A stretch of DNA of 64,000 nucleotides from an uncultured Pelagibacteraceae bacterium (GTDB taxonomy: Bacteria > Pseudomonadota > Alphaproteobacteria > Pelagibacterales > Pelagibacteraceae), in the NCBI GenBank assembly GCA_902545405.1, contig CACCFT010000004.1, positions 1 through 64,000 on the forward strand, written 5' to 3'. Under the pieces are notes generated by a model, which had not been told where the DNA came from, searched no databases, and saw only the letters and a program-made list of their open reading frames with translations. Position numbers and translations under genes: made by a program. Of this stretch, positions 29,972 through 48,294 are shown in pieces (position 1 is the first letter of the stretch; every line of letters starts with the position of its first letter).

Positions 29972-30121
29972 ATATCCCTCACTTTTTTATTAGTTAATGA
30001 TAATAAATTTACACGATTAATGTTAATCTTTTGTTATTTTAAATTTAAAGATAATTTTAATAAATAAAAAAAATATTCAATTTATAGTTTAATTTTGAAA
30101 TCAATTATGTTTACATAAATT

Positions 30122-31126
30122 ATGAATGAAAAAGAGCTTAAAAATCTAATAATTAAAATTTTTATTAATTTTAAATTAAGCAGAAAACATTCAGAAGTTT
30201 GTGCAAATGCAATTATCAATGCGGAACTTGTAGGTGCGCCTTCACATGGATTGTCTCGTTTAAAAATGTATTGTGAAAGAATCTCAAAAAAAGTCATTAA
30301 TCCGAGACCTAAAATTACTGTAAAAAATATATCAAAATCTATATCAATAATTGATGCTGATAATTCTATAGGTTTTGTTGCAGCAGATGAGGCTATTAAA
30401 AAAACTATACAAAATGCAAAAAAAACAGGGATTGGGTTAGTTGCTGTAAAAAACAGCGGACATTATGGATTATCAGGGTATTACGTTGAGCAAGCGGTTA
30501 AAAAAAATTTAATAACATTCGCATTTACAAATGCTCCTCCAGCTATTGCGCCTTTTGGTGGAAAAAAATCAGTCTTTGGAACTAATCCAATATGTTTTGG
30601 AACTCAAACAAATAGTAAGGTTCCGTTTATACTAGATACATCAATGTCTATGATTAATAGAGGTAAAATTAGGATTGCAGAAAAGTTAGGAAAAAAAATA
30701 CCATATGGCGTTGCTTTAAACAAATTTGGTAAACCAACTACAAATGCAAAAGAAGCTCTTGCTGGGGTACAACTTCCAATAGCTGGATTTAGAGGATCTG
30801 GATTAGCCTGGATGGTAGATATTTTAACTGGAGTATTTGTTGGAAGTAATCATGGTGGCAAAGTAAAAGACCCATTTGATGATTTCTCTGGGCCACAAAA
30901 TATCGGTCACTTATTTTTAGCATTTAAAGACAATCTATTTGTTAAAGATTATAAAAAAGAGATAAAAAAAAATATTAAAAGAATAAAAAAAATACCTAAT
31001 TTAAAAGGACAAAAAATATTTTATCCCGGGGAGCAAAAGTATTTAAGAACAAAAACAAACTCCAAAAAATCTATAAAAATTCCAAAAAATATTAAAAAGG
31101 ATTTAGATATTCTCTTAACTAGTTAA
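30122..31126 (+). CDS. LDH2/MDH2 family oxidoreductase
   Basis: SHGLSRLKMYCERI, SGHYGLSGYYVEQA, APFGGKKSVFGTNPI motifs. Confidence 0.85.
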   Translation: MNEKELKNLIIKIFINFKLSRKHSEVCANAIINAELVGAPSHGLSRLKMYCERISKKVINPRPKITVKNISKSISIIDADNSIGFVAADEAIKKTIQNAKKTGIGLVAVKNSGHYGLSGYYVEQAVKKNLITFAFTNAPPAIAPFGGKKSVFGTNPICFGTQTNSKVPFILDTSMSMINRGKIRIAEKLGKKIPYGVALNKFGKPTTNAKEALAGVQLPIAGFRGSGLAWMVDILTGVFVGSNHGGKVKDPFDDFSGPQNIGHLFLAFKDNLFVKDYKKEIKKNIKRIKKIPNLKGQKIFYPGEQKYLRTKTNSKKSIKIPKNIKKDLDILLTS

Positions 31127-31329
31127 CCTGCAAAATAACCTAGTATTCCAATAGATAAACAGACTGAAAGTATTATTATTTTTGACTGAAGTGCCTCTTT
31201 TTTCTTTTCAGTGATTACTCGTTTCTTTAGAACATCTATATTTACTTTACGAGGGGACATTCGAATTACTCTTCGTTTTTTTTCAGGTATTTCAATATTA
31301 GATGTTCTATTTAAGCTTTCAGTACTCAT
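31123..31329 (-). CDS. Small basic protein with C-terminal TM helix
   Basis: 68-aa ORF; basic N-terminus, hydrophobic tail IIILSVCLSIGILGYFAG. Confidence 0.5.
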   Translation of the reverse strand: MSTESLNRTSNIEIPEKKRRVIRMSPRKVNIDVLKKRVITEKKKEALQSKIIILSVCLSIGILGYFAG

Positions 31330-31373
31330 TAAATTATTAAAACATAAAGTAAAAAATTTTACAGATTTTAACT

Positions 31374-31419
31374 GTTCAAAATGGGTTGACTCAAGTTTTA
31401 AAATTGTTCAAATTGGGTT
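31374..31419. repeat. Tandem 14-bp direct repeat, candidate operator
   Basis: GTTCAAAATGGGTT (31374-31387) and GTTCAAATTGGGTT (31406-31419), 13/14 identical, 32-bp period. Confidence 0.75.
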
Positions 31420-31429
31420 TTGATACATT

Positions 31430-32392
31430 ATGAAGCAGCTACCAAGTGTAAATTCAGAACTAGATGATGAACTGATCGATAAAATTTTCAAAAATCATTT
31501 TGATATTTTAAGTCCTTTTTTTTTAAAACTTATGTCTGAATGGACAATCGGTGCTTATAAAGTGTTTAAAGATATAGATACTTACACGATTTTAATTTAT
31601 TTGATTAGTAAGCAGTTTGATTTTTACAGACGTAATAATTTAAATATTACTTTCAATGATTTTTATAAGGATAAATCATTAGAGATTGAGAAAATTAACC
31701 TTATAAGAATATCAAAGGATCTTAAAATACCAAAAGAAAGTGTCAGAAGAAAAATTATATCCCTGGAAAAAAGGGGAATAATTAAAAAAAAGGGCAAGAA
31801 GATTACAATAGATAGAAGTGCTTACAATTCAACACAGCCAAATGATACATTAAAAAATATATGCACACTTTTATCTGTTTTTAGTCAAATTTTAAAAGAA
31901 GAAAAAGTTGTAAAAAACGAAATGTCCAGTAATGAAATTAACAATTTAATAAAACATAATTTCTCATTTTGCTGGTATCAATTTTATAAATTTTTATTCC
32001 CTTACTGCTTAAGATGGAAAAATTATTTTGGTGATATGGAAATATTTACTATTTTAGCAACTATAATTTTGAATAATAATTCAAAAATTGGAAGGCAACT
32101 TAAAGGAGTTGATAGTTATTTAGATAAATGGAGAGATAAAATTATTAATAAAAAAATAAAAGGAATTAATGCAATGTCTATTTCTGAAATAACAGGAATA
32201 CCAAGACCAACAGTAGTAAGAAAAATCAAGAAATTAATTAAAAGTAAATTTATTTCTTTAGACAAAAATAAATTGATAAATTTTGATGTCAGCAAACAAA
32301 ATTTTAAAGATATGTCGATAATCCAAGACGAAAATTTAAAATCAATAAATGTTTTTATAAAAAGAACCTACAATCAAATAAATCTTAATTAG
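31430..32392 (+). CDS. Transcriptional regulator with two internally duplicated winged-helix modules
   Basis: Halves align: ISKDLKIPKESVRRKIISLEKRGIIKKKGKKITID vs ISEITGIPRPTVVRKIKKLIKSKFISLDKNKLINFD. Confidence 0.75.
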   Translation: MKQLPSVNSELDDELIDKIFKNHFDILSPFFLKLMSEWTIGAYKVFKDIDTYTILIYLISKQFDFYRRNNLNITFNDFYKDKSLEIEKINLIRISKDLKIPKESVRRKIISLEKRGIIKKKGKKITIDRSAYNSTQPNDTLKNICTLLSVFSQILKEEKVVKNEMSSNEINNLIKHNFSFCWYQFYKFLFPYCLRWKNYFGDMEIFTILATIILNNNSKIGRQLKGVDSYLDKWRDKIINKKIKGINAMSISEITGIPRPTVVRKIKKLIKSKFISLDKNKLINFDVSKQNFKDMSIIQDENLKSINVFIKRTYNQINLN

Positions 32393-33233
32393 AATTTTTA
32401 AGAATATATATAAATATAAATCCAGTTATATACATTACTAATGCATAAGCAGCGGTGGGAACCATGTAAGCGACATCATTGAAAATTTGTGTTGCTACAA
32501 ATACAGCTAAAGTTCCATTTTGTAATCCACATTCTAAAGAAATACATTTTCTCTGTGGTATTCCAGTTGCAAAGCCTTTTGCAATGTAAAATGCCAAAGT
32601 CATCATGACTACGTTTAATATTAAAACAGCTAAACCCGCTTGACCTAAGTATGATATTATATTTTCTCTTTCCTCAATCCATATTGCTGCAAATACAACA
32701 ATAAACAAAATACCTGTAATTCTATTTACAATATTAATATTAGAAGAAATAAAGTTTTCAGCAAATCTTCTAATTATCATTCCTAGAATTACTGGCACAG
32801 TTACAACTAGTGCCATTTTAAGAGCAATACCAGTCATCGTAATATCTGAGGATAAATCAGTTACACCTAATAATTTTGCTGAAGAAAAAACAATAAATGG
32901 AACAGAAAAAATACTAATTAAACTACCTACTGCTGTTAACGAAATAGATAATGCAACATCTCCATTCGCAAATTTTGTTAAAACATTTGATGTTACTCCT
33001 CCAGGAGCTGCAGCAATAATCATTAATCCTAATGCTAATTCAACTGGTAATCTTAATATTAAAAGTAAAATATAAGCGACGATTGGGAGAAGGATTAATT
33101 GACAAATTATTCCGACTGTAAAATCTTTTGGATTATTTATAACTCTTAAAAAATCTCTAGTTGATAAGCCCAATCCAAGACCTAACATTATAAGGGCTAA
33201 CGCTATAGGTGCAATTATTGTAACTATCTCCAT
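32385..33233 (-). CDS. BASS family (bile acid:Na+ symporter-like) transporter
   Basis: Multi-TM; IAAAPGGVTSNVLT; ECGLQNGTLAVFVA. Confidence 0.88.
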   Translation of the reverse strand: MEIVTIIAPIALALIMLGLGLGLSTRDFLRVINNPKDFTVGIICQLILLPIVAYILLLILRLPVELALGLMIIAAAPGGVTSNVLTKFANGDVALSISLTAVGSLISIFSVPFIVFSSAKLLGVTDLSSDITMTGIALKMALVVTVPVILGMIIRRFAENFISSNINIVNRITGILFIVVFAAIWIEERENIISYLGQAGLAVLILNVVMMTLAFYIAKGFATGIPQRKCISLECGLQNGTLAVFVATQIFNDVAYMVPTAAYALVMYITGFIFIYILKNSN

Positions 33234-33317
33234 CGTTTGTTCAATTTTAAACTATTTTTATATCGAACGTAATAAAAAATATTGATATTTAGAACCATAA
33301 CAAATATTTAAACTCAT

Positions 33318-34229
33318 ATGTTATCTGATAAATCCACAGTTTGTCCTGTAAATCTACTTAATATAGCTCATCAAAAAAGAGGTGTAAAAGCAGCCATTGT
33401 AAATGCAGGTAAAAAATTACCAATGATGTCAGTAATGGATGCTGTCTCTGAAAAATTGATCACCCCAATATTAATAGGTGATAAACAAAAAATACAAGAA
33501 TGCGCAGATGAACTTAAATTTGATATATCAAATTTTGAAATAATTAATGAGCCAGTTGAAAATAATACAGCTGGAATTGCAACCAAACTTGCATCGGAAG
33601 ATAAAGTAAAAATTATAGTAAAAGGACATATTCATACTGATATATTGATGAAAGAAGTTCTTAGAAGAGAATATAAATTAATTGGAAAAACAAGACTAAG
33701 TCATATTTGGCATATGACATTACAAAAAGATGATAAACCATTAATCATAACTGATGGAGCATTGAATGTTTCTCCTAACCTAAAAACTAAAATGCATATT
33801 TTAAAAAATGTTATAGATTTTAGTCATAGAATTAATATTCCAAGACCAAAAATTTCTATCCTTTCAGCGACAGAAGAAGTTATTGATAGTGTACAGAGTT
33901 CGGTTGAAGCTAAAGAATTAACTGAATTGGCAAGTAAAGAAAATTTTAATGCTGATATTTTTGGACCCTTAGCATTTGACAATAGTATTTCAAAAAAATC
34001 TGCTTCTATTAAGGGAATTGAGAATATAGTTGCTGGGGAAGCTGATGTATTATTAGTTCCAAATGTCGAAACTGGAAATGCGCTTGTAAAAATGATGATT
34101 TATTTTATGGGAGCATGTGCAGCAGGCGTAGTTGTTGGAGGTAAAGTACCTGTTGTTATAACAAGTAGATCAGATGATGCGACAGCAAGACTTGCTTCTA
34201 TAGCTGCAGCCGTTGTTGCTTTAGATTAA
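33318..34229 (+). CDS. Phosphate acetyl/butyryltransferase family (short Pta/Ptb)
   Basis: VKGHIHTDILMKEVL, ITDGALNVSP, ADVLLVPNVETGNALVK motifs. Confidence 0.82.
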   Translation: MLSDKSTVCPVNLLNIAHQKRGVKAAIVNAGKKLPMMSVMDAVSEKLITPILIGDKQKIQECADELKFDISNFEIINEPVENNTAGIATKLASEDKVKIIVKGHIHTDILMKEVLRREYKLIGKTRLSHIWHMTLQKDDKPLIITDGALNVSPNLKTKMHILKNVIDFSHRINIPRPKISILSATEEVIDSVQSSVEAKELTELASKENFNADIFGPLAFDNSISKKSASIKGIENIVAGEADVLLVPNVETGNALVKMMIYFMGACAAGVVVGGKVPVVITSRSDDATARLASIAAAVVALD

Positions 34230-34288
34230 ACTTCTATTGAATAAACATCTTATATAATTTAAACATTTATAAAATTAGAGAAAAAATA

Positions 34289-35575
34289 ATGGCAATTACT
34301 TATATAAAAAAAGCTGAAAAAACTGCATTTACAGGTGAAGATGAAACAAGAACTAAGGTAAGTTCTATTTTAAAAGATTTAGAAAAAACTAAAGACCAAG
34401 GGGTTAAAGATATTTTAAAAAAATTTGATAATTATGAAGGTGATATAATTGTTAGCAAAGAAAAAATTGAGGAAATAAATAAAACTTTAGATCAGAAGAT
34501 TAAAGACGATATTCAGTTCTCTCATGAAAGAGTAAGGAAGTTTGCAGAACACCAGCTTGAAAATCTTGGAAAAGACTCAGAAGTTGAATTATCGCCTGGT
34601 TTAATAGCAGGGCAAAAATTAATACCTGTAAATACCGTTGGGTGTTACGTGCCCGGTGGAAGATATAACAATATCGCCTCTGCTATAATGAGTGTGACAA
34701 CTGCAAAAGTTGCTGGAGTAAAAAATGTAATTGCAACAAGTCCGCCGAAAGATTCAAATGGTGCTAACCCAATTATAATTTATACAGCTAACCTTTGTGG
34801 TGCAGATGTAATTATGAACATTGGCGGTATAGGAGCAATTGGTGCGCTTGCATATGGTTGCTTTGGTAATCCAGAAGTAGATATGATTGTTGGACCTGGA
34901 AATAAATTTGTAGCAGAGTCTAAAAGGATTTTATTTGGAAAAGTTGGAATTGATTTATTTGCAGGACCAACCGAAATAGGCATTATTGCAGATCATACAG
35001 CTGACAAAGAAATAATCGCTTATGATTTAGTTGGACAGGCTGAACATGGTCCTGACTCTCCAGCTTGGCTTTACACTACTGATAAATCTTTATGTGATTA
35101 TGTTATGAAAAGAGTTCCAGAAATTATTCAAGAACTACCTGAACATAACAGAAATAATGCTGATGCTGCATGGAGAGATTATGGAGAAGTAATTATGTGT
35201 GATACCAAAGAAGAAATGATGAAAGTGAGTGATGAATATGCACCAGAACATTTAGAGGTTCAAGCTGAAGACTTAGACTGGTATTTAAAAAATCTTAAAA
35301 ATTATGGTTCTTTATTTTTAGGTGAGGAAACAACAGTTGCGTATGGAGATAAATGCTCTGGACCAAATCATATTCTACCAACAAAAGGTGCAGGAAAATA
35401 TACTGGAGGCTTATACGTTGGAAAATTTATAAAAACAGTCACTTACCAAAAAATGAATAAAGAATCTAACAAAGAAGTTGGTGCTGCAGCGGCTAGAATT
35501 TCTAGATATGAAGGTATGGAAGCTCATGCTAGAACTGGTGATGTAAGACTTCGAAAATATGGTTTTTCAAATTAG
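34289..35575 (+). CDS. Histidinol dehydrogenase superfamily, HpsN-type (sulfopropanediol 3-dehydrogenase-like)
   Basis: PVNTVGCYVPGGRYNNIASAIMSVTTAKVAGVK; YAPEHLEVQ; GDKCSGPNHILPTKGAGKYTGGLYVGKFIKTVTYQ resembles HpsN rather than HisD. Confidence 0.7.
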   Translation: MAITYIKKAEKTAFTGEDETRTKVSSILKDLEKTKDQGVKDILKKFDNYEGDIIVSKEKIEEINKTLDQKIKDDIQFSHERVRKFAEHQLENLGKDSEVELSPGLIAGQKLIPVNTVGCYVPGGRYNNIASAIMSVTTAKVAGVKNVIATSPPKDSNGANPIIIYTANLCGADVIMNIGGIGAIGALAYGCFGNPEVDMIVGPGNKFVAESKRILFGKVGIDLFAGPTEIGIIADHTADKEIIAYDLVGQAEHGPDSPAWLYTTDKSLCDYVMKRVPEIIQELPEHNRNNADAAWRDYGEVIMCDTKEEMMKVSDEYAPEHLEVQAEDLDWYLKNLKNYGSLFLGEETTVAYGDKCSGPNHILPTKGAGKYTGGLYVGKFIKTVTYQKMNKESNKEVGAAAARISRYEGMEAHARTGDVRLRKYGFSN

Positions 35576-35588
35576 AGAACTTTAGTTT

Positions 35589-36665
35589 TCAAGATTTAAA
35601 AATATCAATTCCGATCTGACTTAATATATGCGCTAGATCTATCGGTACCCAATTTTCTCTGATTTTTCCCTCATCATGATGATAAAAATCCATAACTCTC
35701 ATAGTTACTTTATTTTTATTTGAATTATATCCTAGCCAATCATTTGAATCATACACTGCTTGTATACTGTGCCATCCAGCAGTAAGTGAAAATTTACCAT
35801 CTCCTAATTCACAATAATGTCCTAATTCCCAGTAATTTCTTTCTTTAAATGTTTTTCTAAAAGGAAGTTGATGATGATCAATAAAACCTTCCAAAGAGCG
35901 TGCTGTTCCTATACCGCTAGGTCCATACCAAATCATTTTTTCATGCCAAAAATCTTTTTGTGGGTGATTAATAAGTTTTTCTTTTAAATCAGAGTCAGAT
36001 GATGCTTCTAATTCTGGTTTAATATTTAAACTTCTTTGCATAGTAAGAGATTGATCTAGAGTGGCTTTTGAAACATCTAAATTGTTTTCGTAAAAATTTA
36101 CACCATCTGTATTTATTGGTGTCATCCAAATGCCCTCATACCCTCTTGAAGGATTTATTGGAAACTTCCCTACTTGATTTAGAAAATTTATTGTGTCGAT
36201 TAAAATGTGACTTTCAATAATTTTATTGTTTTTTAATTCGTGTATCTCACAGCATCTTAAATTTACCATTTTAAAATTTGGCTCTACATTTAGCCATTTC
36301 TTTTTAAAAATTCCTGATAAGGTAGATATTGTTCCAACTTGAAATTTATCTCTAAAGGCTCCGCCTATAACGAGTTGTTCTCTTCTCTCTAAATCAGGAA
36401 ACGCATCAAAAAGTGGGGTCCAAAATTTATCCCTAAAATTAGACAAACCTTTAAATTCATTTAATGGAAAAAAACATTTAATATTTACATCTTCGCTAAA
36501 ATATTTGCTTAAATTTTCTTCTATTTTAGATGGTCCAAGATTGTAAATATTGTTCAAATAATTTCTAACTATTTGTTTATTTTGTTTATTTTCTTCAGCT
36601 GTGATTTTTAATTCTTGAAAATTATTTTGATTTTTAAGTCCTGTATCAAATTGTTCTATTTGCAT
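35589..36665 (-). CDS. Double SnoaL/NTF2-like domain protein
   Basis: Two SnoaL-like segments (FRDKFWTPLFDAFPDLERR; VMDFYHHDEGKIRENWVPIDLAHILSQIG); ATG 36665 preferred over 36725. Confidence 0.65.
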   Translation of the reverse strand: MQIEQFDTGLKNQNNFQELKITAEENKQNKQIVRNYLNNIYNLGPSKIEENLSKYFSEDVNIKCFFPLNEFKGLSNFRDKFWTPLFDAFPDLERREQLVIGGAFRDKFQVGTISTLSGIFKKKWLNVEPNFKMVNLRCCEIHELKNNKIIESHILIDTINFLNQVGKFPINPSRGYEGIWMTPINTDGVNFYENNLDVSKATLDQSLTMQRSLNIKPELEASSDSDLKEKLINHPQKDFWHEKMIWYGPSGIGTARSLEGFIDHHQLPFRKTFKERNYWELGHYCELGDGKFSLTAGWHSIQAVYDSNDWLGYNSNKNKVTMRVMDFYHHDEGKIRENWVPIDLAHILSQIGIDIFKS

Positions 36666-36706
36666 AAATTGCAATTTATATTTAAATAGAGATAAATAAC
36701 AAGAAT

Positions 36707-37645
36707 ATGATTGATAGATTAGCAAAATTTAATGAGCTCGTTCCAAGTAGCCTTCCTTTTGTAGAGGGTAGATTAGAAGGTCATAAAGAAAGAAAAAATT
36801 ATACAATTATTGGACGTGGTGTCGCTGAAGACACCAAACAGCTAATAAAAATACAGTCTTTACATGGGTATAATTTAGGAGCAGTGAGTGCTATGCCAAA
36901 AAATGGATCTGGTCTTCATAGTCATACTACGGCTGAAGTATTTGTAATTTACTCAGGTAAATGGAGATTTTATTGGGGTGCTGATGGAAAACAAGAAACA
37001 ATATTAGAAGCTGGCGATATAATTTCAATGCCTACAAATATGTTCAGAGCATTTGAAAATGTTGGAGATAAAGAAAGTTTGATGTTTGTTGTATTAGGCG
37101 GAGATGATCCTGGTATAATAACATGGGTTCCAGAAATTTTAAAAAAGGCAAAAGAGACTGGTATGGCATTGCTTGATGATAATTCGTTAATAGATTTAAA
37201 AAAGGTTGAAGTGCCTAACGGTAGAAAGATGATAGAGCCTATCACTCAAGATGAATTAGAAAGATTTGATAATTATTTGCCAGAAGAATTAGAAAAAAAT
37301 ATTTATAGAAATAAACAAAACAATATCAGCGATGAAGTTAATGGTATTAAATTATATCAAGTATTAGGAAACAAATTTAATAAAAAAAATTATGAACCTT
37401 CAATCAAACAAGATACTGGATTTAATTTAACAACATTAAATTCTATATCTGGTGAAATTAAAGGTATTGAATGTATAAAGCCTACCGTTCTTTTTGCTCA
37501 AGAAGGTAATTGGAAAATAGCAATAAGAAACTCAAATATAAAATTAGAAAAAGGAGACACTTTTTCAGTTCCTTTGAGTAGCAAAATAGATATCTCGTGT
37601 AATAATTCAGAAAATAGTATTTTAAATTTTGTTAGTCAGATCTAA
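36707..37645 (+). CDS. Cupin domain protein
   Basis: SGLHSHTTAEVFVIYSGKWRFYWGADGKQETILEAGDIISMPTNMFRAFENVG. Confidence 0.85.
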   Translation: MIDRLAKFNELVPSSLPFVEGRLEGHKERKNYTIIGRGVAEDTKQLIKIQSLHGYNLGAVSAMPKNGSGLHSHTTAEVFVIYSGKWRFYWGADGKQETILEAGDIISMPTNMFRAFENVGDKESLMFVVLGGDDPGIITWVPEILKKAKETGMALLDDNSLIDLKKVEVPNGRKMIEPITQDELERFDNYLPEELEKNIYRNKQNNISDEVNGIKLYQVLGNKFNKKNYEPSIKQDTGFNLTTLNSISGEIKGIECIKPTVLFAQEGNWKIAIRNSNIKLEKGDTFSVPLSSKIDISCNNSENSILNFVSQI

Positions 37646-38604
37646 TGAAAGGATTTGATAGTAATTATAAAAATTTAACTGATTACATTTTAAAAATTAC
37701 TAAACAAATTTGGGAAGGGAAAGATGTCGAGTCGATATCTAAATATTATTCAGAGAATATACCTGTAAGATCACCCTTTGGGATAACCTATGGTTTTAAA
37801 CCTGTTATTGATGCAACTTATAAAACTTTAGACGAATTTCCAGACAGACAATTATTAGGTGAGGATGTAATTTGGAGTGGAAATGATGATGAAGGATATC
37901 ATTCATCTCACAGAATTCTGAGCAAAGCTACACATTTAAATGACGGGTATTATGGAAAAAAAACAGGAAACAAAATTGTTTATAGAGTTATAGCTGACTG
38001 TGCATGTAAAAATAATCAGGTTTATGATGAGTGGATTGTGAGAGATCAAGGTGCAATGGTTCGACAGCTAGGTTATACACCTGAGCAATTTGCAAGGCAT
38101 TTAATTGATAAAGAAGGTGGGGTATCTAAAGCTATCAAAGTTTTTAATAGATCTTCTGATAAAAAGTCAGATTATACTCCAGTAAAAGTAAATGAAGTTT
38201 CATCAGGTTATATATATTCCAATATTTTAAAGAAAATATTTAATAATGATTATGATTTTGAAGATTATGATAGAGCAGCCAGTCTATTTTGGCCAAGTAA
38301 TAAAGTTGGAAATGGCAGTGAAGATATAATTAAATATTGGAGCTCTTTAAAAAATATATTTTCTGAAATAAAGTTTACAATCGAACATGTTGCATCATTG
38401 GATGAAAAAAATAACAATCAAAAAGCTACAATCAGATGGTTTTTAAGTGGTAAGCACTCTAAAGACAGTGAAGAATTTGGGAAAAAGACTGACAAAGATT
38501 TATTTATAATGGGTATAAATCATGCAGAATTAAGAGATTATAAAATAATAAGAGAATGGGTATTGTTTGATGAAGTGGCTATTTGGAAACAAATATTAAT
38601 GTAA
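37645..38604 (+). CDS. Double SnoaL/NTF2-like domain protein
   Basis: Two NTF2-like segments (DVESISKYYSENIPVRSPFGI...DEWIVRDQGAMVRQLG; DRAASLFWPSNKVGNGSEDIIKYWSSLKNIFSEIKFTIE...). Confidence 0.65.
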   Translation: MKGFDSNYKNLTDYILKITKQIWEGKDVESISKYYSENIPVRSPFGITYGFKPVIDATYKTLDEFPDRQLLGEDVIWSGNDDEGYHSSHRILSKATHLNDGYYGKKTGNKIVYRVIADCACKNNQVYDEWIVRDQGAMVRQLGYTPEQFARHLIDKEGGVSKAIKVFNRSSDKKSDYTPVKVNEVSSGYIYSNILKKIFNNDYDFEDYDRAASLFWPSNKVGNGSEDIIKYWSSLKNIFSEIKFTIEHVASLDEKNNNQKATIRWFLSGKHSKDSEEFGKKTDKDLFIMGINHAELRDYKIIREWVLFDEVAIWKQILM

Positions 38605-38609
38605 AAACA

Positions 38610-39737
38610 ATGGATAAAATTAAAACCACACATGTTGGAAGTCTGCCAAGATCAAAAAAGTTATCTGAAATACTTTTTAAAAAAGATAAAAATGAATTAT
38701 TTGATCAAGGAGAACTTGATGAGATTATTGAAGAAGATGTAAACAAAATTGTAAAAAAACAAATTGATATCGGGATTGATATTATAAGTGATGGTGAAAT
38801 GTCAAAAATAAGTTATGCTACCTACGTCAAGGATCGATTACATGGCTTTAGTGGCGAAAGTGAGAGAAGAGCTCCTAAAGACTTAGATGATTTTCCATCA
38901 TATAAAGAAAAAATTGCAAAATCAGGAGGTACACCTACTTATACAAGACCATGTTGTACTGCTGATTTAAAAATTAAAGATACTAAGTCTCTAACTAAAG
39001 ATATCAGTAATTTAAAATCTGCATTAAAAAAAAATAATCATTCTCAAGGATTTATTAACTCTGCATCACCAGGAGTAATTTCAAATTTCCTTCCAAACAA
39101 ATTTTATAAAAATGACGATGATTATTTGGTGGCATTATCAAAAATGATGAAAACTGAATATGATGAAATAACAAATAATGATTTATTATTGCAAATTGAT
39201 TGTCCAGATCTTGCGCTTGCAAGACATATGACTTTTAAAAATGTATCAGATGAAGAATTTTTAGTAAGAGCTGAAAAACAAATCGAATGTCTTAATGAAG
39301 CAATCAAAGATATCGATGCCTCTAAGTTGAGAATGCATATCTGCTGGGGAAATTATGAAGGACCACATATTCACGATATTGGATTAGAAAAAATATTACC
39401 TATTGCTTTAAAAGCAAATATCCAAACTTATTTAATTGAATCCTCGAACCCAAGACATGCTCATGAATGGCAGGTTTTTGAAAATATAAAACTTCCTAAT
39501 GATAAAGTAATAGTTCCTGGTGTAATAGACTCAACCTCAAACTTTATAGAGCATGAAGAGTTAGTAAAAAATAGAATAATTCAGTATTCAAAAGTAATTG
39601 ATAAAAATCAACTAATGGCTGGAAGTGATTGTGGATTTAGTACTTTTGCTGGTTTTGGAAATGTGGATGAAAATATTGTTTACAAAAAATTTGAATCTTT
39701 GGTCGCAGGTGCAGAGCTTGCGTCAAATGCGATTTAA
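38610..39737 (+). CDS. MetE-C/UROD-like zinc methyltransferase family protein, stand-alone
   Basis: TTHVGSLPRSKKL; putative Zn ligands MHICWGN, YLIESSNPRH, GSDCGFSTF; ATG 38610 chosen. Confidence 0.75.
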   Translation: MDKIKTTHVGSLPRSKKLSEILFKKDKNELFDQGELDEIIEEDVNKIVKKQIDIGIDIISDGEMSKISYATYVKDRLHGFSGESERRAPKDLDDFPSYKEKIAKSGGTPTYTRPCCTADLKIKDTKSLTKDISNLKSALKKNNHSQGFINSASPGVISNFLPNKFYKNDDDYLVALSKMMKTEYDEITNNDLLLQIDCPDLALARHMTFKNVSDEEFLVRAEKQIECLNEAIKDIDASKLRMHICWGNYEGPHIHDIGLEKILPIALKANIQTYLIESSNPRHAHEWQVFENIKLPNDKVIVPGVIDSTSNFIEHEELVKNRIIQYSKVIDKNQLMAGSDCGFSTFAGFGNVDENIVYKKFESLVAGAELASNAI

Positions 39738-39810
39738 AAACTACTTTTAAATTCCCTAAGGAATATATATCCTTTCATACATAAATTTAAATTTAATGAG
39801 GGAAACAAAT

Positions 39811-41031
39811 ATGAAAAAAATATTAATATCTTTATTGTTTCTTCTTTTTGGAACTTCTGCTTACGCAGATTGTAACATTAAGAGTGGATCAATAAATATT
39901 TTAGCTAATGATTTTCCAGCTTTAAGAACTTTCGTGGAAACTGCTAAAGGATGTAAAGGAAGTGCGGATTTTAAAGTCACACACTCATCTGAGCACAATA
40001 AAATTGCTGTGCCAGCTCTAACTGCAAATCCATCAGAGTTTTCTGCAAGAATTGCAGCAAATAGCTCTATAGTTCCTTTGATGAACCAAGACTTAATTAG
40101 ACCACTTGATGATCTTGTTAAGAAATATGGAAAAGGAATACAAGACTCTCAATTGATAACAATTGATGGAAAAATAATGGCAGTTGCTTTTATGGCAAAC
40201 ACTCAGCACTTATATTACAGAGAAGATGTTTTAAAAGAATTGGGTATAGCTGTTCCTAAAACATATGAGGAAGTAGTTGCGGCATCAGAAAAAATAAGAG
40301 CATCTGGTAAAATGCAATATCCTTACGCAGCAGCATACAAAGCTGGTTGGAATTTAGCAGAAGAATTCGTTAACATGTACATTGGACATGGAGGAGAATT
40401 CTTTAAAGCAGGAACTGCTCAGCCAAGCATTAACAATGCAAAAGGTGTAGCAACATTAAATATGCTAAAAAAATTAGCAGGTTTAAGTAACCCAGATTAT
40501 TTAACTCACGATAGTGAAGCTATTAAAGTTGAATGGGAATCTGGAAATGTTGCATTAATGACTCTTTGGGCATCAAGATCAGGAACATTGCTTGATGATG
40601 ATGGTGATGCAAAAATTACAGCAGCAACTAAATTAACTGGACCAGCAACAGTTGCTGGAGGAAACATACCAGCAGCGACTTTATGGTGGGACGGTTTCAC
40701 ATTAGCAAAAAATAGATCTGACGCTGATGCTGAAGCAACATTTAGAGCTTTGGCACACGCAGCTGCTAACAAAAAGATGGTTGCAGATGCAGCGGATCAA
40801 GCTGTTTGGTTAATTGAAGGTTTCAAGCCTGGACCAAAATCAATTGGAGTTATCGAAGCTGTTAAAATGAAAGCTAAACCATATCCAATGTTACCACAAA
40901 TGGGTTTAATGCATGGTGCATTAGGAAGTGAGATTGTTGAATTTTTACAAGGTAAAGAGTCAGCAGAACAAGCTTTAAAAGATGTGGAAGCAGCTTACAT
41001 GAGTAAAGCAAAAGAACAAGGCTTTCTATAA
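39811..41031 (+). CDS. Sugar-type ABC transporter substrate-binding protein
   Basis: Signal peptide MKKILISLLFLLFGTSAYA; extracellular SBP family 1-like; followed by two MalFG-type permeases. Confidence 0.82.
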   Translation: MKKILISLLFLLFGTSAYADCNIKSGSINILANDFPALRTFVETAKGCKGSADFKVTHSSEHNKIAVPALTANPSEFSARIAANSSIVPLMNQDLIRPLDDLVKKYGKGIQDSQLITIDGKIMAVAFMANTQHLYYREDVLKELGIAVPKTYEEVVAASEKIRASGKMQYPYAAAYKAGWNLAEEFVNMYIGHGGEFFKAGTAQPSINNAKGVATLNMLKKLAGLSNPDYLTHDSEAIKVEWESGNVALMTLWASRSGTLLDDDGDAKITAATKLTGPATVAGGNIPAATLWWDGFTLAKNRSDADAEATFRALAHAAANKKMVADAADQAVWLIEGFKPGPKSIGVIEAVKMKAKPYPMLPQMGLMHGALGSEIVEFLQGKESAEQALKDVEAAYMSKAKEQGFL

Positions 41032-41043
41032 TCAATAAATTTT

Positions 41044-41067
41044 AGGTGGGGATGAAAATCCCCACTT
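41044..41067 (+). other. Hairpin between SBP and permease genes
   Basis: AGGTGGGGAtgaaaaTCCCCACTT (9 pairs including one G-U). Confidence 0.7.
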
Positions 41068-41076
41068 ATTACATTA

Positions 41077-42105
41077 ATGCCTAACAAAACTTTTTTTTGG
41101 TTTTTCTTGCCAACTGGATTGGCAATGATTTTATTTATAGGTCTTCCTATTATTTCAACAGGTATACAATCATTTTATGCGCAGCACGACCAAGTTGTTA
41201 AGGAAGTAAAAAAATGTGATCCTTTTGGGTGTACAGTTTCAATAGTTGTTGACCAAGAAAAAACCTCTAAAATTCGAGAAGAAAAACCTTTAGGAAAATT
41301 CAATGGGTTTGGGACTTATGTAGATAGAAATCATCTTGCAATAGAAGAAATTGGAAAATTTTGGAGCGAAACAAATAGTTTTGGGGAATTTGTAGATCAA
41401 GTTACCAACCTACCCTTTTACAAGGCTCTAATATTTACTTTAACTTATTGCTTGTTTGTAACACCTAACGTTTTACTTTTGGGCTTTATAATTGCTTTAA
41501 GTCTTAATGCAGTAACTAGAAGAATTAGAGGACCATTAATATTTGGAACCATATTGCCGATGATTGTTACTCCATTGGTAGGTTCTTTAGTTTTATTTTG
41601 GATGATAGATGCAGAAGGAATTATTGGCGCGAATTTGCAAATGTTAATGGATGACCCTTATTTATCGTTAAAATCCTCAAAAACTCTTACTTGGATAACT
41701 ATAATAATTTATGGAATTTGGCACCATTCACCATTTGCTTTTGTAGTATTTTACGCAGCTTTACAAACTGTTCCCCAAGAACCTGTTGAAGCAGCTATTA
41801 TTGATGGAGCATCAAGATGGCAGAGAGTAAGACATATTGTTTTGCCTCATATTTATCCTGTAGTTACATTTGTTGCTCTCATATCCTTGATGGATAATTT
41901 TAGAGTTTTTGAGCCTATAATTGGTTTTAGTGCTGAAGGAAGTGCTCAATCTTTATCATGGTTAATTTATGATAACCTCGTTAATGAGGAAGTAATATTA
42001 TTTGGTTCGGCTGCAGCCACCTCAATGATGACGATTGTTGGGATAGCCATACTTTTAGCACCAGTTTTAATAAGAACATGGAAGGAATTTAGGACAGCGA
42101 GATAA
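41077..42105 (+). CDS. MalF/UgpA-type ABC permease
   Basis: EAAIIDGASRWQRVRHIVLPHIYP EAA loop. Confidence 0.88.
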   Translation: MPNKTFFWFFLPTGLAMILFIGLPIISTGIQSFYAQHDQVVKEVKKCDPFGCTVSIVVDQEKTSKIREEKPLGKFNGFGTYVDRNHLAIEEIGKFWSETNSFGEFVDQVTNLPFYKALIFTLTYCLFVTPNVLLLGFIIALSLNAVTRRIRGPLIFGTILPMIVTPLVGSLVLFWMIDAEGIIGANLQMLMDDPYLSLKSSKTLTWITIIIYGIWHHSPFAFVVFYAALQTVPQEPVEAAIIDGASRWQRVRHIVLPHIYPVVTFVALISLMDNFRVFEPIIGFSAEGSAQSLSWLIYDNLVNEEVILFGSAAATSMMTIVGIAILLAPVLIRTWKEFRTAR

Positions 42106-42987
42106 ATGGAATACGGACTTGATAAAAGATCAAATGCTTTAAAAATTTTTAATACAACCTTTATAATAGTATGGCTTTTGGTTGCATGCTTTCCTTTTAT
42201 TTGGACTTTCTGGGGGTCATTTAAAGTAAGAGCTGACTTTTTTTCAAGAGCTGACTGGTGGTATGCTATCACAGCATTCAATACATTGTTAGAAACTGGA
42301 GGAAAGTTTACAACAGATGCTTATAGTCAAGCTTGGACTGAAGGAGAGTTTTGGAAGGCATCTAGGAATACAGTTATAGTTACATTTTTTGTTGTAACCA
42401 TTTCTCTGTTCCTCGGGACCTTAGGAGCTTATGCTTTATCTAGATCTACAAGAAATTATGCATTTTGGATTTTAATTGCAGCATTAATTTTTAGAGCAAT
42501 GCCACACATTACTCTAGTCTCTGGTTATTTATTTCCCTTTTTTCAATTACAAATTTGGGGAATACTACCTACGACCATAGTTGTTCTTGTAGCAATAAAT
42601 CAACCATTTACTTTGTGGTTATTGTATTCATTTTTTAAAACTGTTCCTAAAGAACTTGATGAAAGTGCTTTAATTGATGGCTGTTCTTATTTTCAAGCAT
42701 TTAGACATATCATTATGCCAGTTATGTGGCCTGGAGTAATAACAGCTGGATTATTTAGTTTAATGCTTGCGTATAACGATTTTACAGTGACTGCTCTTTT
42801 ATTGAATCAGGAAAATCATACTATGGTTCCTAAAATACAAAGTTATCTTGGAACAAATCAACATGAAGGTAATTTGATGTGGGCTGTTTCTGCAGTTGTT
42901 TCGGCTACTGCTCCTTTATTTATGTTAGTTATGTTTTTCCAAAGACAAGTAATCAGTGGATTAACAGCTGGTGCTGTGAAGGGATAA
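42106..42987 (+). CDS. MalG/UgpE-type ABC permease
   Basis: DESALIDGCSYFQAFRHIIMPVMWPGV EAA loop. Confidence 0.88.
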   Translation: MEYGLDKRSNALKIFNTTFIIVWLLVACFPFIWTFWGSFKVRADFFSRADWWYAITAFNTLLETGGKFTTDAYSQAWTEGEFWKASRNTVIVTFFVVTISLFLGTLGAYALSRSTRNYAFWILIAALIFRAMPHITLVSGYLFPFFQLQIWGILPTTIVVLVAINQPFTLWLLYSFFKTVPKELDESALIDGCSYFQAFRHIIMPVMWPGVITAGLFSLMLAYNDFTVTALLLNQENHTMVPKIQSYLGTNQHEGNLMWAVSAVVSATAPLFMLVMFFQRQVISGLTAGAVKG

Positions 42988-43646
42988 TGAGTTACAAAGC
43001 TGTTTTATTTGGTTCTATTGGAACTTTAGCTGAGACTTCAGATCTTCAAAGAGATGCATTTAATGAAGCTTTTAAAATAAGTGGATTAGACTGGTTTTGG
43101 GATGAAGATATTTACAGAAAACTATTGTCAAAATCAGGTGGAACTACGAGAATTAATGATTACGCAAAAGATACTAGTGTTGAAATAGACGGAAAAAAAA
43201 TAAGAAATTTAAAAACCAAAATTTTTAATGAATATTTAAACAAACACAAAGTTGAGCCTAGAGACGGTGTAAAAGAAATAATTCAATTTTGCAAAAAGAA
43301 CAAAATAAAAATTGGGCTTGCTAGCTCAACAACAAGTAACAATATCAATTCTATATTTAACTCGTTAAGAGGAAGAATTGAAAAAAAAGATTTTGATTTT
43401 ATCGGCAATAATGAATTCATATTAAGAGAAAAACCATATCCTGATATTTATAATTATGCTTTAAAATACTTAAATATTAACTCAGACGAATGTGTGGCAA
43501 TTGAAGATACAGAAGAAAGTTTAAATTCTGCTTTAAGTGCAGACATAAAATGTGTTGCATTTCCTGGAAAATATCACACTCAATACGGATTTGATGGGAA
43601 CCATTTAAAGGTTAATAAATTATCAAAAAAAATCTTTAATAAATAA
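42987..43646 (+). CDS. CbbY-like HAD superfamily protein with degenerate catalytic motif I
   Basis: MSYKAVLFGSIGTLAETSDLQRDAFNEAF...; expected DxDGT replaced by GSIGT; later motifs (LASSTTSN, REKPYPDIY, AIEDTEESLNSA) intact; TAATG overlap start. Confidence 0.8.
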   Translation: MSYKAVLFGSIGTLAETSDLQRDAFNEAFKISGLDWFWDEDIYRKLLSKSGGTTRINDYAKDTSVEIDGKKIRNLKTKIFNEYLNKHKVEPRDGVKEIIQFCKKNKIKIGLASSTTSNNINSIFNSLRGRIEKKDFDFIGNNEFILREKPYPDIYNYALKYLNINSDECVAIEDTEESLNSALSADIKCVAFPGKYHTQYGFDGNHLKVNKLSKKIFNK

Positions 43647-44250
43647 TATCTCTAATAATGTAAAAAACTATAACTGACATAAATATTATAATAAAAATAT
43701 TTATATATTTCCAAAAGCTTCTATTATTTAATTTGTTTGAAAAAATCTTAGATAAGTATCCTAAAGAAAAGAAAAATAAAAAAGAAGCTATAGAAGCACC
43801 TATTCCAAAGTAAATTTTGTTTTCAATATTAAAGGATTTTGAAAAATTTCCTAAAAAAAATACTGTATCAGAATATACGTGAGGATTTAAATATGTAAAA
43901 CCTAAGGTCTTAATAAAGATATTAAATGAGCTCTGTGCTATGACATTATTTTTAAATTCTAAAGATCTAAATTTAAATATTTCTTTAATTTTTCCATAAA
44001 TAAAAAAAGATAAAAAAATAATTAAAAGGATATTTAAAATCAGCTCCACTATATTATTAAAATAATAAGAAAAATAATTAAATAAAAAGATACCTAAGAA
44101 AATTAAAATCAAATCAGATAATGCACAGACTAAGCAAACTAAAAATATGTATTGTTTTTTTAGTCCTTGCTCTATTACAAAAACATTTTGTGGTCCTATT
44201 GCAAAAATTAATGTTAAGCCCGTCAAAAAACCTAAAAAAAGAAAAGACAT
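43636..44250 (-). CDS. LysE/ArgO-type amino acid exporter
   Basis: TLIFAIGPQNVFVIEQGLKK signature. Confidence 0.88.
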   Translation of the reverse strand: MSFLFLGFLTGLTLIFAIGPQNVFVIEQGLKKQYIFLVCLVCALSDLILIFLGIFLFNYFSYYFNNIVELILNILLIIFLSFFIYGKIKEIFKFRSLEFKNNVIAQSSFNIFIKTLGFTYLNPHVYSDTVFFLGNFSKSFNIENKIYFGIGASIASFLFFFSLGYLSKIFSNKLNNRSFWKYINIFIIIFMSVIVFYIIRDIIY

Positions 44251-44252
44251 GT

Positions 44253-45434
44253 TTAAGAAACTGATTTTTTATCGGCCATATAACTTACAAAAATAATTAA
44301 TACTAAAAAAGGTATGCAAATAAGATTCATCATTTTCCATCCAATAGAATTTAGTAAAATTCCAGCAGATAAACTGGCCAAAGCCATAGTTGAAAAAACA
44401 ATTAAATCATTTATCCCTTGTACTTTAAATTTTTCTTCTTTGTTATAAGTCAAAACTACTAAGCTGGTACCTGATATAAACAAAAAATTCCAACCGAGAC
44501 CTAAAAAAATTAATGAGAGCATATAATTAAGATATGTCTGTTCAAATAAACTTAAAAGAACTGTAATAAAAAAAAATAAAACTCCACCATAAATTATTGC
44601 ACTGTGTCCATATTTTTTTATTAAATTACCTGTTATTAGCGAAGGTAAAAACATTGCAACCACATGAAATTGTAATACTAACCCAGTTTCTTTTAAGCTC
44701 ATATTTTCCATAACATGCATACTTAAAGGAGTTGCTGTCATTAGAAATGACATTACTGCGTAAGCAAAAGCTGCTGCAGTAATTGCTTGTAAAAACCTTG
44801 GTTGTAATACGATAGATTTTAGATTTCTTATATTTCCTTCCTTTAGACTATCCTTCTGAATATTTTCTACATTTTTAAAAAAAAATAAAAAAACCCCAGG
44901 CATGAAAGATAGGAAAGATAATAAAAGATAAGAACCAACATACAATTGATCTTGGATTAAATCTTTAGTGTAATTTGCAAGACTTATGCCTAAAAATGCT
45001 GAAACAATCCCTGCCAATAGAAGAGTAGAAATTGCTTTTGGTATTTTGTCTTTTTCAACACTTTCAGCTGCTGCAAATCTATATTGATGATTAAATGCAG
45101 CTCCCATTCCAAGAATTAAGCAAGATAGACAAAATAAATTAAAACTTTTCTGACTGATTGCAAAAGCAGCAAGTAGTGCAGAACATGAACTTCCTATAGC
45201 CGCAAATACAAAACCATTTCTCCTTCCAATTTTACTCATAATATTTGCCGCTAAGACAGTAAAACTTGCAGTTCCAACTACAAATAAAGCAGTTGGCAAA
45301 GTTGATAAAGATTGATTTGAGCTAATTTGGGAACCAACAATTCCACTGAGAAATACTGTTATTGTTGCTGTGGTAAAACCAAATATCTGACTTAACGTAA
45401 GTAAGGATAAATTTCTATTCATAATTAGCGTCAA
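44253..45434 (-). CDS. MFS transporter
   Basis: 12-TM-like ORF with MFS motif ANIMSKIGRRNGF. Confidence 0.82.
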   Translation of the reverse strand: MTLIMNRNLSLLTLSQIFGFTTATITVFLSGIVGSQISSNQSLSTLPTALFVVGTASFTVLAANIMSKIGRRNGFVFAAIGSSCSALLAAFAISQKSFNLFCLSCLILGMGAAFNHQYRFAAAESVEKDKIPKAISTLLLAGIVSAFLGISLANYTKDLIQDQLYVGSYLLLSFLSFMPGVFLFFFKNVENIQKDSLKEGNIRNLKSIVLQPRFLQAITAAAFAYAVMSFLMTATPLSMHVMENMSLKETGLVLQFHVVAMFLPSLITGNLIKKYGHSAIIYGGVLFFFITVLLSLFEQTYLNYMLSLIFLGLGWNFLFISGTSLVVLTYNKEEKFKVQGINDLIVFSTMALASLSAGILLNSIGWKMMNLICIPFLVLIIFVSYMADKKSVS

Positions 45435-45505
45435 TATATTTTTGCTGTTATTTAAATATCTATATAGTTGTTTTGAATTTTAATATAGAAGATATTATTT
45501 AAATT

Positions 45506-46207
45506 ATGATTGGTATATTAGGAGGTATGGGAACTCAAGCGGGCTTAGACTTTTGTGATAAGCTTGCAAAATTAAACAGAGGAAAATTAGATCAAAAATA
45601 TCCAATGTTTGTCCTCTATAATAAATCAAATACACCACGAAGAGAAGAGAATTTAAAGCAATACAAAAATGTTTTAAAAGAATTAATTGCTGGTTGTCGA
45701 ATGCTGGAAAAAAATAAATGCAAGTTTATTGTAATGCCTTGTAACACAGCACATTACTGGCATGAAGATATTCAAAAAAAAATATCAGTGCCATTTCTTA
45801 GTATGCCAAAAGAGGTATATTTAAACACACAAAAAAAATTTAAGAAAAATTCAACTATAGGATTATTATGTACTGAAGCTACTTTAGACACAAAAATCTA
45901 CCATAAATATTTTGAAAAAAATTATAATTTGATAAGTCCTAGTGAAAGATTACAAAAGAGTTCAGTAAATACTGCTATTAAATATGTGAAAAAAGGTAAA
46001 GTAAAAGATGCTGAAAAAGCTTTAAGACCAGCAGTAAAATTTTTAATGAAAAAAAAATGTAAAAAAATAATTCTTGGTTGTACAGAACTACCAATAGCTA
46101 TTTTTTCATACAAATCTTTTAAAAAAGCAAAAGACTCTAAAATATTTGTTGATCCAAATCTTTTGTTAGCTCAAGTGTGTATGAAAAAATATAAAAATTT
46201 AAAGTAA
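45506..46207 (+). CDS. Aspartate/glutamate racemase family protein
   Basis: MIGILGGMGTQAG; VMPCNTAHYW and LGCTELP catalytic Cys motifs. Confidence 0.88.
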   Translation: MIGILGGMGTQAGLDFCDKLAKLNRGKLDQKYPMFVLYNKSNTPRREENLKQYKNVLKELIAGCRMLEKNKCKFIVMPCNTAHYWHEDIQKKISVPFLSMPKEVYLNTQKKFKKNSTIGLLCTEATLDTKIYHKYFEKNYNLISPSERLQKSSVNTAIKYVKKGKVKDAEKALRPAVKFLMKKKCKKIILGCTELPIAIFSYKSFKKAKDSKIFVDPNLLLAQVCMKKYKNLK

Positions 46208-46209
46208 AT

Positions 46210-46863
46210 TTAATTTTTTTTATTACAAATAAAGTATAATTTTCTCGGAAATGATCCTTCTTCAAAATACTCAATAATTAAGTTTTTAAATCCATTTGTT
46301 AAATTCAGTATTTTATCTTTAGAAAAAAAATGAATAATAAAACCATCTATTTCGTATAGATCTTCTCCTCTATGAATTCCTTTTTTATAGTCTCCGTCAT
46401 TAGTATTTCTGACTGTGTAAATATTTAATCCTCCAGGTTTTAAAATTCTATGAATCTCACTATTAAGTTTGTCCAAATCTTTCAGGGTTAAAGCCATGCA
46501 ATAAAGCATATGTGAATAACAAGCATCAACTGAATTAGTTTCAAATGGTAAGTCTTCTCTTATGTCAAATTTTAATGTTGAAATTGAAGATGTTAAATTT
46601 TCTTTTTTTATCTTTTCATTGATAATTTTAATTCCATTTTCACTATAGTCTAATGCTGTTACATTTATCGAATTCTTTGCAAAGTAAATGCTATCTCTTC
46701 CTAGACCTGCTCCTAGCTCAACAATTTTAGAATAATTGTTTTCTTTGAAAATATTTAAAGCTTTTTTTGCAGGTAAACTTGGTTCTAAACCAAACATCTC
46801 AGGCTTATTTGAGAAATTAGTTTCCCAATGCTGAGATTGTCGGTTTAAAATATTTTTATCCAA
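46210..46863 (-). CDS. SAM-dependent methyltransferase (class I)
   Basis: IVELGAGLGRDSIYFAKN motif I. Confidence 0.8.
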   Translation of the reverse strand: MDKNILNRQSQHWETNFSNKPEMFGLEPSLPAKKALNIFKENNYSKIVELGAGLGRDSIYFAKNSINVTALDYSENGIKIINEKIKKENLTSSISTLKFDIREDLPFETNSVDACYSHMLYCMALTLKDLDKLNSEIHRILKPGGLNIYTVRNTNDGDYKKGIHRGEDLYEIDGFIIHFFSKDKILNLTNGFKNLIIEYFEEGSFPRKLYFICNKKN

Positions 46864-46864
46864 T

Positions 46865-47524
46865 TTACTTAGAAGGATCTGGAACCTTTCTTAGATAAGG
46901 TTTTACAGTTTCCCATCCATCTGGATATATTTTTTTAGCTTCGTCATCTTTAATCGCTGGCAAAATAACAACATCCTCTCCCTTTTTCCAATTAGCAGGA
47001 GTAGCTACTTTATGTTTAGCTGTTAGCTGCATAGAGTCTATTGCACGCAAAATCTCTAAAAAGTTTCTTCCAGTTGCCATAGGATATGTAAGATATAATC
47101 CAATTCTCTTATCAGGTCTGATTACAAAAATAGTTCTTACAGTTTCATTATCAACTGCAGTTCTACCCATTGAGGTTGTTCCAGCATCTGCTTCCAACAT
47201 ATTAAACAATTTTGCTACTTTTAAATCTTCATCAGCAATAATTGGATAATTTGGTTTTGTACCAGATACATCTTTAATATCATCTAACCATTTTTTATGA
47301 TCCTCTACTCCATCAACACTTAAACCAATCACTTTTACATTTCTTTTATCAAATTCATCTTTCATTAATCCTAAAGCACCAAGTTCTGTAGTACAAACTG
47401 GTGTAAAATCTTTAGGGTGTGAAAAAATAACTCCCCAACTATCACCTAACCATTCGTGAAAAGAAATATCTCCTTCAGTTGTTTTAGCTTGAAAATCAGG
47501 ACACATACTATTTATTTTTAACAT
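46865..47524 (-). CDS. 1-Cys peroxiredoxin (Prx6-like)
   Basis: HPKDFTPVCTTELGAL; GVEDHKKWLDDIKD; YPMATGRNFLEILRAIDSMQL. Confidence 0.9.
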   Translation of the reverse strand: MLKINSMCPDFQAKTTEGDISFHEWLGDSWGVIFSHPKDFTPVCTTELGALGLMKDEFDKRNVKVIGLSVDGVEDHKKWLDDIKDVSGTKPNYPIIADEDLKVAKLFNMLEADAGTTSMGRTAVDNETVRTIFVIRPDKRIGLYLTYPMATGRNFLEILRAIDSMQLTAKHKVATPANWKKGEDVVILPAIKDDEAKKIYPDGWETVKPYLRKVPDPSK

Positions 47525-47598
47525 TGTCTCCTCCTTATAAAAAAAATATTATATGAAAGATTGTTTTACTAAGCAAACTTTTATAAAGTTAGGTATTT

Positions 47599-48294
47599 AT
47601 GATATTTGAACAACTTTTCGATCAAAAATCTTCTACATACACTTATATAATTGCAAGTGGTGAAGGTAGAGAAGCATTAATAATTGATCCAGTCATTGAA
47701 CATTCTGATGAGTATTCAACTATTTTGAATAATTTAGATCTTAAACTTGTAAAAGTAATTGATACTCACATTCATGCTGATCATATCTCAGCATTAAATG
47801 AATTAAATAAAAGAACAAACTGTATAAGAGTTATGGGAGAAAAATCTAAATCAGAAGTGATAGATCTAAGAATTAAAGATGGTGAAAAAATTAAAGTTGA
47901 AGAAGTTGAACTTCAAGCAATTTATACTCCTGGTCATACTGACTGCTCTTATAGTTTTTTGATGAATGATAGAGTTTTTACTGGAGATACACTTTTAATA
48001 AATGGAAGTGGTAGAACAGATTTTCAAAATGGTAATGCTTACGATGCTTATGATTCTATATTTAATAAATTATTAAAATTACCCGAAAAAACTCTCGTAT
48101 TTCCAGCTCATGATTATAATGGCAAGAAATTTTCCACTATTGAAAATGAAAAAAATAATAATCCAAGATTACAAGTAAGCTCAAAGGAAGAATATGCGGA
48201 CATAATGAATAATCTAAATCTTGCAAATCCAAAAATGATGGATGTCGCAGTACCTGCTAATGTAAAAGGGCTTACTTTAGACAATATTAATTAA
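47599..48294 (+). CDS. Metallo-beta-lactamase fold hydrolase, persulfide dioxygenase/ETHE1-like
   Basis: DTHIHADHISALNEL; TPGHTDCSYSF; TGDTLLINGSGRTDFQNG. Confidence 0.8.
   Translation: MIFEQLFDQKSSTYTYIIASGEGREALIIDPVIEHSDEYSTILNNLDLKLVKVIDTHIHADHISALNELNKRTNCIRVMGEKSKSEVIDLRIKDGEKIKVEEVELQAIYTPGHTDCSYSFLMNDRVFTGDTLLINGSGRTDFQNGNAYDAYDSIFNKLLKLPEKTLVFPAHDYNGKKFSTIENEKNNNPRLQVSSKEEYADIMNNLNLANPKMMDVAVPANVKGLTLDNIN

Follow-up and report, generated by a model that had tools for sequence, protein, structure and literature searches.

The locus lies on contig C4 of a 984-kb, 70%-complete genome of the Pelagibacteraceae (SAR11), and single-cell genomes of the same family hold near-identical loci. 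Within the window, by which we mean the whole 64,000-nt stretch of this contig that was analyzed, eight genes form a compact block (35589–43646) in which a divergent SnoaL gene (Sno1) is followed by genes for a bicupin, a second SnoaL protein (Sno2), a MetE-like protein, an SBP, two permeases and a HAD-like protein (Table 1). A profile search shows that all eight open frames are real, each with a Pfam match above cut-off, and this bears out the gene list and order given in the initial annotation, along with the short spacing it had reported: the cupin and Sno2 genes overlap by 1 nt, Sno2 is 5 nt from the MetE-like gene, the permease genes abut, and permease B and the HAD-like gene overlap by 1 nt. 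A start at TTG 36725 had been proposed for Sno1, which is unlikely; since the homologues begin at ATG 36665, we place the start there. The starts of the SBP (39811) and the HAD-like gene (42987, a correction) were also set here. An Rfam search of positions 30000–48000 returned no RNA family, neither a riboswitch nor another RNA element. Inverted repeats in the 5' regions were dismissed as A+T noise, and a phage origin of the block was dropped, as a search of phage records yielded nothing matching Sno2.

Table 1 Features of the block and its HisD-like neighbor, with positions in the window.
Feature	Position	Strand	Basis
HisD-like dehydrogenase, neighbor outside the block	34289–35575	+	SAR11 core gene
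Sno1, two-domain SnoaL/NTF2-fold protein, divergent	35589–36665	-	PF07366, E 2e-18
Divergent intergenic region, 41 nt, presumed two-way promoter region	36666–36706		Sequence
Bicupin	36707–37645	+	PF07883 (Cupin_2), E 9e-11
Sno2, second two-domain SnoaL protein	37645–38604	+	PF07366, E 2e-12
Stand-alone MetE catalytic-domain protein, core-MetE type	38610–39737	+	PF01717 (Meth_synt_2), E 3e-16
SBP, sugar-type (CUT1), signal-like N-terminal segment	39811–41031	+	PF01547 (SBP_bac_1), E 1e-15
Permease A, UgpA/MalF-like	41077–42105	+	PF00528 (BPD_transp_1); best NCBIfam UgpA, under cut-off
Permease B, MalG/GlcU-like	42106–42987	+	PF00528 (BPD_transp_1); best NCBIfam GlcU/MalG, under cut-off
HAD-like pseudoenzyme, beta-phosphoglucomutase-like fold	42987–43646	+	PF13419 (HAD_2), E 4e-22

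Sno1 and Sno2 belong to the SnoaL family (PF07366), with profile matches above the curated cut-off and an NTF2-like fold, and an AF2 model of Sno2 (pTM 0.72) matches the folds of IdmH, AclR, SnoaL2 and AknH in a structure search. In both proteins, each domain keeps an acidic residue at the ExW...D-type position: D157 of Sno1 is nearly invariant and D343 invariant, and in Sno2 E129, W130 and D134 are invariant and D309 nearly so. The fold and the acidic residue are shared with the SnoaL, SnoaL2, AknH and IdmH polyketide cyclases and hydroxylases; however, the Sno proteins consist of two fused domains, occur as several paralogues per operon, and sit in a presumably catabolic neighborhood with no polyketide synthase nearby. 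The N-terminal cupin of the bicupin keeps H71-x-H73-x3-E77, with Arg114 in place of the His that is the usual fourth ligand (invariant columns, 23 sequences). A structural model of the cupin (pLDDT 57) was too poor for a structure search, and a DddK-type DMSP lyase was rejected as its identity, the protein being a 312-aa bicupin rather than a single domain of ~130 aa and the match having an E of ~2e-4 over 76 residues.

The HAD-like protein shares the HAD_2 / PGMB-YQAB fold and the ED of motif IV with beta-phosphoglucomutase-like HAD hydrolases, but it lacks the DxD of a catalytic HAD hydrolase. Motif I, FDxDG, reads FGSIG, so that both aspartates are lost, the nucleophile to Gly and the acid/base to Ile. 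As GSI is common to the window protein and all 18 other homologues compared, including two from outside SAR11 (L127 and L131), the gene encodes a conserved pseudoenzyme rather than being in decay, and its earlier designation as a pseudo-HAD holds.

The MetE-like protein comprises only the catalytic domain and has no folate domain. E. coli MetE binds zinc through H641, C643, E665 and C726 and homocysteine through S433, E484 and D599 (PMC7857596); the counterparts here are H243, C245, E277 and C341, and S11, E63 and D197. All seven are invariant in 16 homologues, so the complete residue set of a core methionine synthase (Zn H, C, E, C; homocysteine S, E, D) is in place. The score, by contrast, places the protein in no named methionine synthase family (107 bits, against 406 for the best NCBIfam cut-off), and since it is far under every methionine synthase model we have filed it in no curated family; the MesD structure 3rpd is a weak match. 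Like the core folate-independent methionine synthases MesA–MesD (PMC7857596), it consists of the MetE catalytic domain by itself and keeps each zinc and homocysteine residue, but unlike them it sits in a presumed catabolic cluster and scores ~107 bits or less with any curated MetE-like model. Neither MesX nor the corrinoid proteins linked to MesA–D were seen beside it. Judging from these residues, the protein looks equipped to act like a homocysteine-methylating enzyme. Another MetE-like enzyme, epoxyalkane:CoM transferase, has CoM-binding residues and carries out epoxide chemistry; we favor homocysteine over CoM because the homocysteine-binding E63 and D197 are kept. The intact active site lends indirect support to the earlier idea of a methylated substrate, whose demethylation we infer.

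It is possible to read this protein as a plain core methionine synthase of the MesA–D kind, which would serve methionine biosynthesis with an unspecified methyl donor and owe its position in the block to co-regulation rather than catabolism. The retention of all zinc and homocysteine residues favors this, as does the lack of a second close MetE-like protein in the 70%-complete window genome. The MetE-like gene is, however, linked to SnoaL, cupin and importer genes in 17 of 20 alphaproteobacterial neighborhoods and lies between cupin and hydrolase genes in annotated operons, and its score falls far short of all curated methionine synthase cut-offs, so we regard a purely biosynthetic role as unlikely.

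Conservation of the block was followed with the cupin in 297 genomes of the order. A match, full or cut by a contig end, was found in 52 of them, all in the window's genus-level group, and in about 32 of the 150 genomes with a completeness of 90% or more (about a fifth). Three weak matches in block-free SAR11 genomes (G011, G174, G254) are short, unrelated cupins. The named collection holds 188 relatives, 80 of which were examined, and in the 80 SAR11 loci the order from Sno1 to the HAD-like gene is kept as far as the contigs reach, except in L086, where the HAD-like gene was not recognized. By identity to the window cupin these loci fall into two lineages (95–100% and 61–65%). The flanks of the block differ between the lineages and some loci carry other importers between HisD and Sno1, and for these reasons we take Sno1 to HAD as the conserved unit. 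Thus, the cluster is intact in the SAR11 loci that are long enough, which exceeds what chance would give, and has relatives in Rhodobacterales, the two groups in which its conservation was to be checked. About 12 lineage-1 loci have a glycine-betaine-type permease and an OpuAC binding protein between HisD and Sno1 (L039:6261–8831). Sno1 itself exists in two forms, 97–99% and ~64% identical to the window's (L034 8889, L036, L039, L070 and other lineage-1 loci), and was probably swapped by recombination, since the neighboring genes are ~98% identical between loci with either form.

The HisD-like dehydrogenase next to Sno1 has a different history. Among 37 SAR11 genomes tested, 35 have a close orthologue (at least 72%), whether or not they carry the block; in the remaining two (G056 and G058), only a HisD of the biosynthetic type was seen. 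Relatives whose MetE shares 66–69% identity with that of the window have a HisD only 45–48% identical to this protein, which falls outside the relatives' HisD in a tree. As a core SAR11 gene whose lineage is discordant with that of the block genes, it was rejected as a member of the inherited block, though it may be a pathway partner that is not co-inherited. The window genome encodes a separate, biosynthetic HisD on contig C24; the HisD-like gene beside Sno1 ends a row of three genes (32385–35575) that begins with a bile-acid-symporter-like gene and a phosphate acetyl/butyryl transferase.

The SBP_bac_1-type SBP and two BPD_transp_1 permeases in one operon constitute a CUT1-type importer, an assignment made by remote similarity, as none of the CUT1 equivalogs in NCBIfam reaches its cut-off. 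The UgpBAEC, MalEFG-MalK and SmoF-type importers are alike in these components and in the MalK/UgpC-type ATPase found in the block's relatives; the window importer differs from them in being tied to SnoaL, cupin and MetE-like genes, and in having no ATPase encoded alongside in this strain. The block indeed contains no ABC ATPase, as was first annotated. A MalK-type ATPase adjoins Sno1 in about 25 of 33 lineage-2 loci (in L079 it shares 1 nt with the Sno1 end, in L088 it lies 1 nt away), and an ATPase is also part of the operon in many other Alphaproteobacteria. The genome search for a MalK/UgpC-type ATPase that had been called for found two close ones, each in another importer operon: the one at C6 (55%) lies next to a CUT1 importer, the one at C13 (53%) next to a Ugp-like importer. 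A MalK-type ATPase, with ABC and MalK-like C-terminal domains, is therefore available, linked in relatives and in trans in the window genome. Supply in trans, as originally proposed, is plausible for the window strain because the block lacks an ATPase here, a single-contig genome with the block (G020) likewise has no linked orthologue of the lineage-2 ATPase, and two ATPases are present elsewhere in the window genome. As a general arrangement the proposal does not hold, since most lineage-2 loci encode the ATPase behind Sno1. In about 14 lineage-2 loci (L078:2564–7644), a second CUT1 importer and an MGH1-like (mannosylglycerate hydrolase-like) glycoside hydrolase lie behind the Sno1-linked ATPase, which suggests that one ATPase serves two importers there.

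Between the two SAR11 lineages the SBP and permeases are 87–95% identical at the protein level, compared with 51–77% for the HAD-like, cupin, SnoaL and MetE-like proteins. Despite this, 44–65% of fourfold-degenerate sites in the transporter genes differ, similar to the other block genes. Silent sites are thus saturated, which rules out recent transfer as the cause of the near-identical transporter. Because protein identity is high at saturated silent sites, we conclude that the importer is under strong purifying selection. Uptake is the most constrained part of the system, and the selection on the importer suggests that the ligand is identical in both lineages.

An importer for an ordinary sugar, with the SnoaL, cupin and MetE-like genes as unrelated passengers, would fit the resemblance of the SBP and permeases to general CUT1 sugar systems, as well as a transporter that is much more conserved than the enzymes. 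Yet an SBP orthologue (at least 89%), found in 26 of 147 SAR11 genomes counting the window's own, occurs without the cupin only in G056 and G058, whose contigs (4.2 and 4.7 kb) stop at this point, so that contig-end cases aside the SBP is never without the enzymes in SAR11. Across many families of Alphaproteobacteria, and in Vibrio too, orthologous enzyme genes also adjoin those of the orthologous SBP and permeases. In most relatives the SnoaL, cupin and MetE-like genes do lie beside the transporter; we find the passenger scenario, which the initial annotation had itself named as the case against its reading, distinctly unlikely.

Outside SAR11, relatives of Sno2 are present in 28 of 384 other alphaproteobacterial genomes (~7%), spread over many families. 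The cupin family is found in all 20 alphaproteobacterial neighborhoods compared, a HisD-like gene in 18, the MetE-like gene in 17 and the SBP in 16, and several of the absences fall at contig or region ends. By annotation and Pfam, plasmid operons of Ruegeria conchae, Octadecabacter arcticus and Paracoccus alcaliphilus further contain a MalK ATPase, LacI, SDR, HisD, an alpha/beta hydrolase and an RraA-family protein; the HisD, SDR, LacI, hydrolase and RraA genes of the relatives had gone unnoticed in the first reading. The Roseobacter 'ester cyclase'/HisD/RraA plasmid operons, known from database annotation only, share orthologous SnoaL, cupin, SBP and permease genes with the block, and a MetE-like gene in two of three. 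SAR11, in contrast, has no linked LacI, SDR, alpha/beta hydrolase or RraA, and its HisD is of a different lineage. More remote versions are seen in Vibrio, where only the importer and SnoaLs are present, in Ensifer, where a 3-oxo-tetronate kinase and aldolases join the set, and in Deinococcus and Priestia. The MetE-like gene is missing from the Vibrio, Paracoccus and Ensifer plasmid loci and from L143 and L144, so either it is inessential to the core chemistry or the clusters without it act on non-methylated relatives of the compound.

The LacI regulator, aldolases and importer in the relatives' operons argue for catabolism of the imported compound. SnoaL proteins are familiar chiefly as polyketide cyclases and hydroxylases, and the SnoaL profile and fold match antibiotic-pathway proteins (AclR, SnoaL2, IdmH, ChaU, AknH), as would be the case if these genes made, modified or detoxified a natural product rather than fed on one. 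The operons examined, though, contain no synthase, carrier protein or exporter and have an importer, LacI and aldolase instead, which makes a natural-product role highly improbable. The compound was at first thought to be an organic osmolyte, possibly sulfur-containing. SAR11 generally live on such osmolytes and sulfur compounds, and in some loci a glycine-betaine-type importer has indeed been inserted next to the block, but this insertion varies between loci and the window lacks it, and no sulfur enzyme was recognized inside the operons examined. A sugar-type SBP with a LacI regulator is also atypical of betaine or DMSP uptake; the CUT1-type transporter and LacI point to a sugar- or polyol-like ligand rather than to an osmolyte or sulfur compound, and we consider the osmolyte reading, sulfur-containing or not, very unlikely.

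We therefore lean, with moderate confidence, towards the block being one unit, in which a CUT1-type importer feeds a short catabolic route whose substrate is a small and polar metabolite, polyol-like and probably methylated. The initial annotation had likewise joined uptake and catabolism in one system, and conservation over SAR11 and Rhodobacterales supports this. The SBP and two permeases would bring in the compound, with an ATPase borrowed from another CUT1 importer in the window strain. The two-domain SnoaLs and the cupin could then isomerize, dehydrate or open it by acid-base and metal chemistry, and the MetE-type enzyme would bind homocysteine as a zinc thiolate and take a methyl group from the compound or an intermediate to form methionine. 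In other Alphaproteobacteria, the HisD-like and SDR dehydrogenases, alpha/beta hydrolase and RraA-type aldolase may complete the route to central metabolites. That LacI, SDR, hydrolase and aldolase genes are not linked to the block in the window strain counts against our reading, and in SAR11 the neighboring core HisD-like protein and unlinked enzymes would have to substitute.

A more specific and tentative possibility is that the zinc MetE-type enzyme transfers a methyl group directly from the imported polyol-like metabolite to homocysteine, without folate or cobalamin, while the SnoaL and cupin proteins open the carbon skeleton, which would be an undescribed pathway in abundant marine Alphaproteobacteria. 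One speculative but chemically neat candidate substrate is a methoxy-cyclohexenone of the mycosporine/gadusol type, for which hydroxymethyl oxidation, demethylation and ring cleavage would lead to 4-carboxy-4-hydroxy-2-oxoadipate, an RraA-family aldolase substrate; methylated inositols and keto-sugar acids are equally possible.

SAR11 bacteria are among the most abundant ocean heterotrophs, and many of their growth substrates have yet to be identified. A strongly constrained importer that is always tied to the same uncharacterized enzymes, and that roughly one in five of the group's sampled genomes carries, points to a common, as yet unnamed metabolite of the surface ocean. Related operons, or the importer together with SnoaL genes, are present in Roseobacteraceae and Vibrio that can be grown in culture, which brings identification of the compound within reach of direct experiment. 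Should the proposed MetE-like step be correct, use of the compound would also be tied to the supply of methionine in organisms whose methionine and sulfur pathways are reduced. No description of this gene set was found in the literature searched, which did not include the 2024 Nature paper on SAR11 binding proteins (cited in PMC12636525). In a small-genome alphaproteobacterium (L126:9229–12807), the cluster is followed by an APS kinase-GTPase fusion and a PAPS reductase, both of sulfate activation, and by a gene of the inositol-phosphatase family.
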